51,315 nt of DNA from the NCBI GenBank assembly GCA_030614785.1, contig JAUWTJ010000024.1, positions 1-51,315 of the forward strand, in the 5' to 3' direction. Position numbers and translations under genes: made by a program. This document shows, piece by piece, positions 24,257 through 29,062 of the stretch (positions are counted from its first letter, which is position 1; the number at the start of each line of letters is the position of its first letter). This DNA comes from Alphaproteobacteria bacterium (lineage in GTDB: Bacteria > Pseudomonadota > Alphaproteobacteria > M2410). The notes beneath the pieces were generated by a model. That model was not told the DNA's origin and did no database searches. It saw only the letters and a program-made list of their open reading frames with translations.

Positions 24257-27200
24257 TTAAAGTTCCTCGACATCCACAACGCCGGCAACCGATTTAACTG
24301 CGCCTTTGAGCGTCGGGTCGATGGTGTAAAATCCTGGCAGTTCGATTTCCACCTCGCGGCTGGTTTGCGGCAACATGAGGACAAGGCCAATCTTGCCTCT
24401 GCCCTTTGGCTTGTCTTTCGTGACCTGCTCAATGCGGGTCCGGATACTTGCCAGAGGCTGGGGAGAGTCGAGGAAAATTTTGAGAGCCCCTTGGGTATTC
24501 GCAGCCACCTCGTCAAGCATATCGACATTTTTCATGAGGAACTTCGGGCCTTGCTCCTCACCCTCTGCCGAGGTTTCCCACTGAACATCAACCGAAGCGA
24601 CAATATTGTTGCCGGTCTCCAGCTTGTCGCGCACCTGTCTCAGGACGTCAGCAAAAACCATCACTTCAAACTGACCGGTCGGATCCGTCAGGGTGACGAA
24701 GGCAATCGGATTGCCCCTCGCCGATTTGCGCTCGGAGACGGCAATGATCGTGCCGGCAAGTTTGGTGCTGCGGCTCGACCGGCGCGTCGATGTGATGACA
24801 TCTGAATAGCTTTCGACCCGTGCCAGTCTGAGTGCTTTTTGATAGCCGTCCAGCGGATGACCCGAAAGATAAAACCCGATAGCCTCATGCTCGCGCGTCA
24901 ACCGGTCCAGCGGCAGCCACTCCTCGACGTCGGGAAGCGGCGGGTTTTCAACCTCGATGCCGCCGTCGCCGAAGAGGCTCTCCTGGGAGCTTTGCCGCTC
25001 ATCGGCTGCCAGACTGGCGTGACCGGTGATCGTATTGGCGGCTGCAAAAATTTGCGCGCGATTTGGCACCAGGCTGTCGAACACACCGGCCTTGGAAAGA
25101 TTTTCAACGGTGCGGCGGTTGATCATCTTTGGATCGACCCGGCGCGCGAAGTCAAAAACATCTGTAAACGGACCGCCCGTCTCGCGTTCCTCGACAATAT
25201 GCTCCATGGCATGGCGGCCGACATTCTTGATTGCGGCCAGGGCATAGAAGATCTCACCATCGGCGACCTTGAAGTCTGCTTCGGAGCGATTGATATCCGG
25301 TGTATTGACCTTGATCCCCAGACGCAGGGCCTCCTGGCGAAGGATGCTCAGTTTGTCGGTATTGCCCAGATCAAGGCTCATGGAGGCGGCCATAAACTCG
25401 ACCGGGTAATTGGCCTTGAGATAGGCGGTTTGATACGAGACCTGGGCATAGGCCGCAGCATGAGCCTTGTTAAAGCCGTAGGACGCAAATTTTGCCAGTT
25501 GATCAAAGATCTTCTCGGCGGTGTCGTGGTCAATCCCGCTTCTTCCCGCGCCTTCAATGAACCGGTCACGATGCACCGCCATCTCGGAGGCAATTTTCTT
25601 GCCCATGGCGCGGCGCAGCAGATCCGCTTCGCCAAGCGAATAACCGGCAAGATCCCTAGCAATCTGCATGACGTCTTCCTGATAGGTCATGACGCCGAAG
25701 GTTTCATTCAGAATAGGCTCAAGCGACGGATCCAGATATTCCGGCTCTTCGCGCCCGTGCTTGCAGGCAATGTAGCGCGGGATGGAATCCATCGGCCCTG
25801 GACGATAGAGCGCGACGAGGGCGATGAGATCCTCGATCCTGTCCGGCTTCATCTTGCGCAGCAGGTCCTGCATGCCGGTGCCTTCCACCTGGAAGATGCC
25901 AATGGAGTTGCCGGTCGACAGCATCTCAAAGGTTTTCACATCGTCAAAGGGAATCTGATCGGTTTTGATCGTGATATCGCGCGCCAGAAGATGCTTCTCT
26001 GTCCGGGCAATTACCGTGAGAGTTTTCAGCCCGAGAAAAGCGAATTTAACGAGACCGCCAGGCTCGACCCATTTCATCGGAAACTGCGTCACCGGCATGT
26101 CGGAGCGCGGATCGCGGTAGAGCGGTTCGAGCTGCTGCAATGGTCGGTCGCCAATCACCAGCCCTGCAGCATGGGTCGAGGCATTGCGAAAAAGTCCCTC
26201 AATCTTGAGCGCAAGATTGAGCATGGTCTTGATGACTTCTTCTTCGTCGGCCGCCTGGCGAAACCTTGGTTCCATTGCCATCGCGTCCTTGAGGCCGACC
26301 TGCTTGCCCGGCGTATTGGGGATCATCTTGCAGAGCCGGTCGACCACCGGGTACGGCACCTGCAACACGCGGCCAACGTCGCGCAGCGCCATGCGGGCCT
26401 GGAAGGTACCGAAGGTTATGATCTGCGCGACCCGGTCATAGCCATATTTGTCCTGCACATAGGCGATCACCTCATGGCGGCGCTCCTGGCAGAAATCGAT
26501 ATCAAAGTCAGGCATCGACACGCGCTCTGGATTGAGGAACCGTTCGAAAACCAGATCAAAGCGCAAGGGATCCAGATTGGTAATCTCGAGCGCCCAGGCG
26601 ACCACCGAGGCAGCCCCGGAGCCCCGCACGCCAACCGGAATATTCTGCGCCCGCGTCCACTTCATGAAATCAGAAACGATGAGGAAGTATCCCGGGAAAT
26701 TCATGCCGTTGATTGTATCAAGCTCGAATTCGAGCCGAGCAAAGTATTCCTCCCTCGTGGCGTAAAGCTCGTTCTCCTCAAGCAACTTCGTCAGCCCGGC
26801 CTCGGCCTGATGGCGCAGGATATCCGCCTCGCTGTCGCCTGATCCATCGGAATAACCGGGCAGGATCGGGTCAATGGATTTGGGCCGCCAGGACACGCGC
26901 CGCGCAATTTCGAGCGTGTTCTCGATCGCTTCGGGCAGATCGCGGAACAGAACCTCCATCTCCCTGGGGCTCTTGAAATAATGCTCCGGTGTCAACCGGC
27001 GCCGGTCGTCCTGCAGAACATAGGAGCCCTCCGCGATGCACAGCAGAGCATCGTGGGCCTCGAACATGTCGGGGGCCGGAAAAAACGGCTCGTTTGACGC
27101 AACCAGCGGCAGCCCGTGTTCATAGGCAAGATCAATCAGCCCGGCCTCGGCGACCTGTTCTTCCGGGCGGCCATGGCGCTGCAACTCCACATAAAGATGG

Positions 27201-27736
27201 TCAGGAAAGGCGTCCGCCAGATCGAGCAGAATTTTCTCGGCCTGGTCTTTCTTGCCATCGACCAGCATCCGGTCGACCGGACCCTGCGGACCGCCGGTCA
27301 ACAGGATCAGGCCTTCGGCATGCTTTTTCAGCAGCTCAACGGATATATGCGGAATTTCGGTACCGTCGGTATCGAGAAACGCCCGACTCGAAAGCTCCAT
27401 CAGGTTGAGGTAGCCCAGTTCGGATTTGGCCAGCAGCGCCACATGGGCCGGTTCGATCTGCTGATGGGCGCGGGCGCCGCCATAGGCCTCATTCGACTGC
27501 TCGCCAAACTCGGGAAACTCGACCAGCGTCGTCATGCCGATAATCGGCTGCACTCCGGTCTTTGATATCTTCTCGGAAATCTCCAGCGCACCAAACAGAT
27601 TGCCGGTGTCGGTAATGGCCACGGCGGGCATGTCATAGCGCTGGCAAAGCGGCGCTATCTCCTCAATGCGGACGGCCCCTTCAGCGAGGGAATACGGGCT
27701 GTGCACCCGTAAATGTACGAAGTTCGCATGGGTCAT
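24257..27736 (-). CDS. dnaE: DNA polymerase III alpha subunit DnaE (replicative)
   Basis: The 1159-aa replicative polymerase. It has an N-terminal PHP domain (VHLRVHSPYSLAEGA, AITDTGNLFGALE), the palm/fingers, a helix-hairpin-helix region and a C-terminal OB fold (SRSTKLAGTIIAVSERKSA). Two catalytic aspartates are in MPDFDIDFC (D412, D414). The third, which in E. coli is D555 in KFDFLGL, is replaced: codon 566 is GCT and the block reads VKFAFLGLKTL. This would be expected to cripple polymerisation and may be a base error. I chose the ATG at 27736 (MTHANFVHLRVHS); the frame extends ten codons further to a GTG. It closes the conserved mce-proS-lolCD-dnaE neighbourhood. Confidence 0.95.
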   Translation of the reverse strand: MTHANFVHLRVHSPYSLAEGAVRIEEIAPLCQRYDMPAVAITDTGNLFGALEISEKISKTGVQPIIGMTTLVEFPEFGEQSNEAYGGARAHQQIEPAHVALLAKSELGYLNLMELSSRAFLDTDGTEIPHISVELLKKHAEGLILLTGGPQGPVDRMLVDGKKDQAEKILLDLADAFPDHLYVELQRHGRPEEQVAEAGLIDLAYEHGLPLVASNEPFFPAPDMFEAHDALLCIAEGSYVLQDDRRRLTPEHYFKSPREMEVLFRDLPEAIENTLEIARRVSWRPKSIDPILPGYSDGSGDSEADILRHQAEAGLTKLLEENELYATREEYFARLEFELDTINGMNFPGYFLIVSDFMKWTRAQNIPVGVRGSGAASVVAWALEITNLDPLRFDLVFERFLNPERVSMPDFDIDFCQERRHEVIAYVQDKYGYDRVAQIITFGTFQARMALRDVGRVLQVPYPVVDRLCKMIPNTPGKQVGLKDAMAMEPRFRQAADEEEVIKTMLNLALKIEGLFRNASTHAAGLVIGDRPLQQLEPLYRDPRSDMPVTQFPMKWVEPGGLVKFAFLGLKTLTVIARTEKHLLARDITIKTDQIPFDDVKTFEMLSTGNSIGIFQVEGTGMQDLLRKMKPDRIEDLIALVALYRPGPMDSIPRYIACKHGREEPEYLDPSLEPILNETFGVMTYQEDVMQIARDLAGYSLGEADLLRRAMGKKIASEMAVHRDRFIEGAGRSGIDHDTAEKIFDQLAKFASYGFNKAHAAAYAQVSYQTAYLKANYPVEFMAASMSLDLGNTDKLSILRQEALRLGIKVNTPDINRSEADFKVADGEIFYALAAIKNVGRHAMEHIVEERETGGPFTDVFDFARRVDPKMINRRTVENLSKAGVFDSLVPNRAQIFAAANTITGHASLAADERQSSQESLFGDGGIEVENPPLPDVEEWLPLDRLTREHEAIGFYLSGHPLDGYQKALRLARVESYSDVITSTRRSSRSTKLAGTIIAVSERKSARGNPIAFVTLTDPTGQFEVMVFADVLRQVRDKLETGNNIVASVDVQWETSAEGEEQGPKFLMKNVDMLDEVAANTQGALKIFLDSPQPLASIRTRIEQVTKDKPKGRGKIGLVLMLPQTSREVEIELPGFYTIDPTLKGAVKSVAGVVDVEEL

Positions 27737-27860: not shown

Positions 27861-27975
27861 CCTCATCCTGAGGAAGGTGCAAAGCGCCTGTCTCGAAGGG
27901 TGAAAGGCCCGAATATCTGCCCCTTGTTCGCCTCGCCTCCTTCGAGGCTCGTTCCACTCGCACCTCAGGATGAGG
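27861..27975. repeat. REP-like inverted repeat, family A (CCTCATCCTGAGG)
   Basis: A perfect 13-bp inverted pair, CCTCATCCTGAGG (27861-27873) and CCTCAGGATGAGG (27963-27975), encloses a second pair, CTCGAAGG and CCTTCGAG (27892-27899, 27939-27946). This looks like the intergenic palindromic repeats common in alphaproteobacterial genomes. It lies between the 34-aa SOS ORF and dnaE and can fold into a long hairpin, possibly ending or weakening transcription into dnaE. Confidence 0.7.
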
Positions 27976-28016: not shown

Positions 28017-28121
28017 TCAGATCTGGCCGCTCGACGGCAGAACCACCGCCCAGAACAGCACCAGAGAAATCAACCCGCCAAAACAAACAGTGTCAGCAAC
28101 ATATCCATAAACATTTCTCAT
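28017..28121 (-). CDS. 34-aa single-membrane-segment peptide, predicted SOS-induced
   Basis: This tiny ORF has a near-ideal ribosome site, AGGAGG, 8 nt before the ATG. The peptide has a short N-terminus (MRNVYGYVADT), one hydrophobic segment at about 12-29 (VCFGGLISLVLFWAVVL) and a short polar end (PSSGQI). Its promoter has a consensus -35 and is flanked by two perfect LexA boxes. By size, topology and control it resembles SOS-induced membrane peptides such as Caulobacter SidA (a division inhibitor) or E. coli TisB. No sequence similarity to either is claimed. It sits upstream of dnaE on the same strand, separated by a REP-like hairpin. Function is unknown. Confidence 0.6.
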   Translation of the reverse strand: MRNVYGYVADTVCFGGLISLVLFWAVVLPSSGQI

Positions 28122-28152
28122 GGCTCTCTCCTCCTGTGTTATCGAGGACTTC

Positions 28153-28181
28153 ATGTTCTGTTTTTGTTCCCATTTTGTCAA
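28153..28181 (-). promoter_or_regulatory. promoter of the 34-aa SOS ORF
   Basis: On the minus strand, TTGACA (28181-28176) is a perfect -35. After 17 bp comes GAACAT (28158-28153), a weak -10. The predicted start is near 28146, about 25 nt before the ATG. The -10 and spacer overlap one LexA box and the -35 abuts the other. Confidence 0.6.
28155..28169. promoter_or_regulatory. lexA box: LexA (SOS) box 1
   Basis: GTTC-N7-GTTC (GTTCTGTTTTTGTTC) is an exact match to the alphaproteobacterial SOS operator. It covers the spacer and -10 of the small-peptide promoter, so bound LexA would block RNA polymerase. Confidence 0.75.
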
Positions 28182-28196
28182 GAACAAAAAAGGAAC
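28182..28196. promoter_or_regulatory. lexA box: LexA (SOS) box 2
   Basis: GAAC-N7-GAAC (GAACAAAAAAGGAAC) is the same operator in the opposite orientation, 12 bp from box 1 and directly upstream of the -35. Two perfect boxes this close suggest tight repression or cooperative binding. Confidence 0.75.
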
Positions 28197-28252: not shown

Positions 28253-28337
28253 GTCATCCTGTGGCTCGACCACGGTATCCGGAACGGCGAACGCAGAGTC
28301 TGAAACCCTGGATCCCGTGGTCGAGCCACGGGATGAC
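28253..28337. repeat. REP-like inverted repeat, family B (GTGGTCGAGCCAC)
   Basis: Two 23-bp arms (28253-28275 and 28315-28337) are inverted copies with one mismatch. Each arm is itself a near-palindrome around GTGGCTCGACCAC. The element lies 14 bp past the lolD stop and could end lolD transcription. The rest of the 28122-28351 gap holds only the SOS control region; I see no other gene. Confidence 0.7.
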
Positions 28338-28351
28338 GGCAAGGCTGACCC

Positions 28352-29054
<703 letters not shown>

Positions 29055-29062
<8 letters not shown>

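Follow-up and report, generated by a model that had tools for sequence, protein, structure and literature searches.

In the 51,315-nt stretch of alphaproteobacterial DNA analyzed here (the window), a gene for a 34-residue membrane peptide is located between lolD and dnaE, behind a promoter with two predicted LexA operators. This gene is probably the syntenic ortholog of Caulobacter sidA and, by analogy with SidA, a candidate damage-induced division brake. The assignment is based on the shared locus, because LexA-boxed 29-aa ORFs precede dnaE in Caulobacter-like genomes, SidA is 29 aa long and dnaE of C. crescentus is CC1926 (PMC1839093). SidA (CCNA_02004; PMC10769358) is an SOS-induced, LexA-controlled division inhibitor of the inner membrane, which interacts with FtsW (PMC4211646). 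There is strong support for a real small membrane peptide under the predicted SOS control: throughout the class, this locus repeatedly shows the promoter architecture together with a small hydrophobic ORF.

The peptide gene, its promoter and the host LexA regulon

The peptide ORF extends from 28017 to 28121 on the minus strand (ATG start, 34 codons and stop) and encodes MRNVYGYVADTVCFGGLISLVLFWAVVLPSSGQI*; an ORF is present at the same place in relatives. Eight nt before the ATG a ribosome binding site AGGAGG is located (28130 to 28135, minus strand), and ribosome sites were also found in the relatives. The ORF and its ribosome site had been described in an earlier note on this DNA and were confirmed by the sequence. 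The one hydrophobic segment recognized there corresponds to a single hydrophobic helix of residues 4 to 27 in an AF2 prediction from the single sequence (mean pLDDT 87). Both the length of 34 aa and the predicted helix are in line with the size and topology of SidA, i.e. about 30 aa and one transmembrane helix.

The upstream neighbor defining the locus is lolD (28352 to 29062, minus strand), which was assigned by synteny and by TIGR02211 with an E-value of 4e-77, below the curated cut-off of this model. Downstream follows dnaE, the gene for DNA polymerase III alpha (24257 to 27736, minus strand; NF004226, 1409 bits). The peptide ORF is therefore located beside the replicative polymerase gene, as the earlier note had stated and as is the case for sidA. 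The ORF and dnaE are 280 nt apart, with a dispersed repeat in between. This repeat is a palindromic element of about 114 bp (27862 to 27975) with the ends CTCATCCTGAGG; it has 35 genome-wide matches with 70-92% identity. A 28-bp inverted repeat (28253 to 28337, 93% complementary) lies between lolD and the peptide promoter; it may be the terminator of lolD or a further dispersed repeat.

The promoter contains a perfect -35 element TTGACA at 28176 to 28181 on the minus strand. From a spacing of 17 bp the sequence GAACAT (28153 to 28158, minus strand) is the presumed -10 element; it is weak, with three of six matches, and lies partly inside the inner LexA box. Owing to this poor -10 element the promoter was absent from the list of a promoter scan. 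Two exact GTTC-N7-GTTC boxes are present, GTTCTGTTTTTGTTC at 28155 to 28169 (predicted operator 1, plus strand) and GTTCCTTTTTTGTTC at 28182 to 28196 (predicted operator 2, minus strand). As in relatives, operator 1 lies between -35 and -10; it overlaps the spacer and the -10 element, whereas operator 2 abuts the -35 element and faces operator 1. The boxes are separated by 12 bp with TTGACA between them, and together they form an imperfect 16-nt inverted repeat round the -35 element. The -35 element and both boxes were thus found as originally described.

Single boxes are common by chance: the whole genome contains 101, compared with 116 for the reversed control, and the window contains 4 versus 2.0 expected. 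The facing pair is a rare pattern, which was detected in 12 of 385 class genomes; the reversed control was found in one genome among those listed. Within the window genome the pair occurs once, at the peptide promoter.

The host genome encodes one LexA, which scores over the curated cut-off, and the lexA promoter carries its own box GAACCAAACTAGAAC directly after TTGACG. AT-rich exact boxes were also identified near uvrA/ssb, whose products are recognized as UvrA and SSB by NCBIfam models, and upstream of a cluster that includes the genes for an ImuB-like polymerase and for a second DnaE (dnaE2). The ImuB-like protein of this cluster gave weak matches to Pol IV models. Since lexA, uvrA/ssb and the imuB-dnaE2 cluster carry the same box, GTTC-N7-GTTC is very probably the LexA operator in this host, the function that the motif had been assigned before. 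With a lexA gene in the host and two exact predicted boxes, the peptide gene resembles sidA in having a LexA operator in its promoter.

The locus in relatives and across the Alphaproteobacteria

The comparison within the family included three relatives. In one of them, G003, the order is lolD, GTTCGCAATTTGTTC-TTGACAGAAACA-GAACAAAAAAGGAAC, ribosome site, the ORF MTMTPKMIEPILETLSLTGLMGVFVFWLGVAQSGAPF and dnaE. The earlier note had proposed to check relatives for a conserved box pair, and G003 repeats the double box with a gap of 12 bp, identical to that of the window genome. In a second relative, G001, the contig starts inside the ORF; the nine codons (stop included) shared with G003 show four synonymous and one non-synonymous codon differences. 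A direct search with the peptide in 59 relatives revealed the window only, the remainder being weak chance matches.

The region upstream of dnaE was read in about 130 genomes of the class, plus named genomes; the class sample was drawn from the best dnaE matches and the counts are not prevalence figures. The arrangement of lolD, LexA-box promoter, ribosome site, a single-helix ORF of 29-47 aa and dnaE was found at about 90 loci. At least 13 families have a boxed hydrophobic ORF in the slot between lolD and dnaE, and additionally Methylopila, with an imperfect box, and Ca. Raskinella. Exact boxes between -450 and -150 from dnaE were present in 19 of 74 testable loci, compared with 0.35 in dinucleotide shuffles, and all of them are on one strand. 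In most of the box-positive loci the box is immediately followed by a hydrophobic ORF of 31-47 aa that has a ribosome site (for example MADWIKDTAALLVLGAVMWSGFALTAAAQAVH and MITDFVKDFLALSSVVGVLWAVTIWSPVLGNALA). A looser harvest comprised 94 entries once evident false ones had been removed; a few of them show the window locus more than once. Of the 94 entries, 59 carry TTGAC followed by a box whose start is no more than 25 nt away. The gene is absent at this locus in two Rhodobacterales-type genomes and in SAR116 genomes, in which lolD is directly adjacent to dnaE. No credible match was obtained for 22 family peptides in Pfam and NCBIfam, and no model there covers the family.

As reference to find Caulobacteraceae we used a CtrA sequence that we take to be that of C. 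crescentus, and the CtrA of four genomes is 100% identical to it. These Caulobacter-like genomes and related ones have LexA boxes and 29-aa ORFs before dnaE, and in the Caulobacter-like genomes the slot is, like in the window, the one between lolD and dnaE. The ORFs of the Caulobacter-like genomes show a median dN/dS of 0.28 and a third-position excess, which indicates purifying selection, and they are taken to be SidA by length, locus and control. The sidA gene of C. crescentus itself is presumably CC1927, next in tag number to dnaE; a literature search did not find this tag for sidA.

Several variants were observed at this or other loci. In family f5 (L215-L244) the slot holds peptides of the type MW[LIF]KDAAAG, and in many cases a second, near-exact box faces the first, like in the window; an assignment of f5 to the Caulobacteraceae was rejected, with a CtrA identity of only 77-80%. 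In family f16, facing LexA boxes are located directly before hydrophobic ORFs of 32-35 aa (L056, L057 and L058 in G150, G327 and G018). These ORFs are apparently leaderless and lie near a gyrB/parE-type gene, and the G327 peptide beats all of its own shuffles against the Caulobacter-type profile. In nine loci of other families (L100, L104, L107, L110, L116, L119, L151, L156 and L189) an exact GTTC-N7-GTTC precedes dnaE by 53-80 nt; its strand is the same in every case, and no peptide is present. In these families dnaE itself may be LexA-controlled.

The similarity of the peptides was analyzed with profile HMMs and 283 decoy peptides, which had been cleared of real family members from other loci. 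Using the HMM of the Caulobacter-type 29-aa ORFs, 8 peptides of other families outranked all decoys (best E 9e-7). With the whole-family HMM the window peptide reached a weak score of 7.0 bits, which was matched or exceeded by one of the 283 decoys and by 9 of 2000 own shuffles. The G003 peptide obtained 7.6 bits, with one decoy higher and 7 of 2000 own shuffles reaching this score. Because of these weak scores the family membership of both peptides rests more on locus, promoter, size and topology than on the letters.

Function and alternative explanations

By analogy with SidA, the function that best fits the window peptide is that of a division checkpoint. The rapid sequence change leaves room for an altered target, and a membrane peptide encoded at the sidA locus and induced by SOS could have diverged to act on something other than FtsW/FtsN. 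The weak similarity to the family would agree with such a divergence, but locus, promoter, size and topology are conserved and nothing points to another target, so that we consider it unlikely. To a similar degree improbable is a membrane toxin of the TisB kind, which would cause depolarization and dormancy instead of a block of the divisome. Comparable size, a single hydrophobic helix and SOS control would fit such a toxin; however, the net charge of the window peptide is about zero and the locus matches sidA. Moreover, Rfam revealed no relation to TisB/IstR RNA and no IstR-type antisense RNA beside the window gene, the few matches being chance hits to miRNAs well under the threshold, and for the toxin proposed in the earlier note nothing was found in support. 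Similarly unlikely, finally, are operators that serve dnaE and place the replicative polymerase under SOS control, with the ORF incidental or a leader peptide. The ORF and dnaE are on the same strand, read-through from the peptide promoter into dnaE is possible and some other families have the dnaE-proximal box without a peptide, but the hydrophobic ORF and its ribosome site persist across families, purifying selection acts on the ORF in Caulobacter-like genomes, and in the window the spacer with its repeat separates it from dnaE.

The peptide had originally been proposed to be an undescribed SOS checkpoint or toxin, with SidA as an analogy. The SOS-controlled membrane peptide is retained, with the checkpoint favored, whereas a stand-alone undescribed system is not, as the gene occupies the sidA locus. 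The likeness to SidA also holds, and by the shared locus SidA is more than an analogy, namely a probable ortholog.

For the division checkpoint we infer that LexA binds, that the gene is induced and translated, and that the peptide inserts into the membrane and blocks division, as follows. In undamaged cells LexA would occupy the two operators, which bracket the -35 element and fill the spacer between -35 and -10, and would keep the promoter shut. After DNA damage RecA would trigger cleavage of LexA, the promoter would open and the 34-residue inner-membrane peptide would be made. Like SidA, the peptide would then most likely bind to the septal wall-synthesis complex (FtsW/FtsN) and hold back constriction until repair ends.

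With somewhat less confidence we favor the wider view that a large part of the Alphaproteobacteria has as its ancestral SOS division checkpoint a LexA-controlled micro-peptide encoded between lolD and dnaE, a counterpart of SulA that was overlooked since the ORFs are tiny and fast-changing; some lineages would have similar LexA-boxed peptides elsewhere, e.g. near parE. Literature searches found no paper taking SidA beyond Caulobacter, and among the papers searched the spread of the sidA-type gene slot at dnaE across the Alphaproteobacteria appears to be new. For most Alphaproteobacteria division arrest after damage is not described in these papers. With the combination of lolD, LexA box and dnaE the inhibitor can easily be located in many genomes, also in those lacking annotation, and the roughly 90 natural variants could be used to map how such a peptide meets FtsW.

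Comparison with known systems

TisB of E. coli is likewise a small, hydrophobic and SOS-induced peptide, but it is a type I toxin with an antisense RNA. YneA, ChiZ and SosA are small damage-induced membrane inhibitors of division (PMC13396833); they belong to other phyla, are larger and are encoded at different loci, and no sequence relation to them is claimed. DidA of C. crescentus is also a damage-induced single-pass division inhibitor. In contrast to the window peptide it comprises 71 aa, is SOS-independent (DriD) and targets FtsN (PMC4211646). The closest counterpart is SidA. The window peptide differs from it in length (34 versus 29 aa) and has weak sequence similarity, and its gene has two facing operators round the -35 element, whereas Caulobacter-like genomes show other arrangements. 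Both have in common the LexA-box promoter, the position at dnaE, a size of about 30 aa and one hydrophobic helix.
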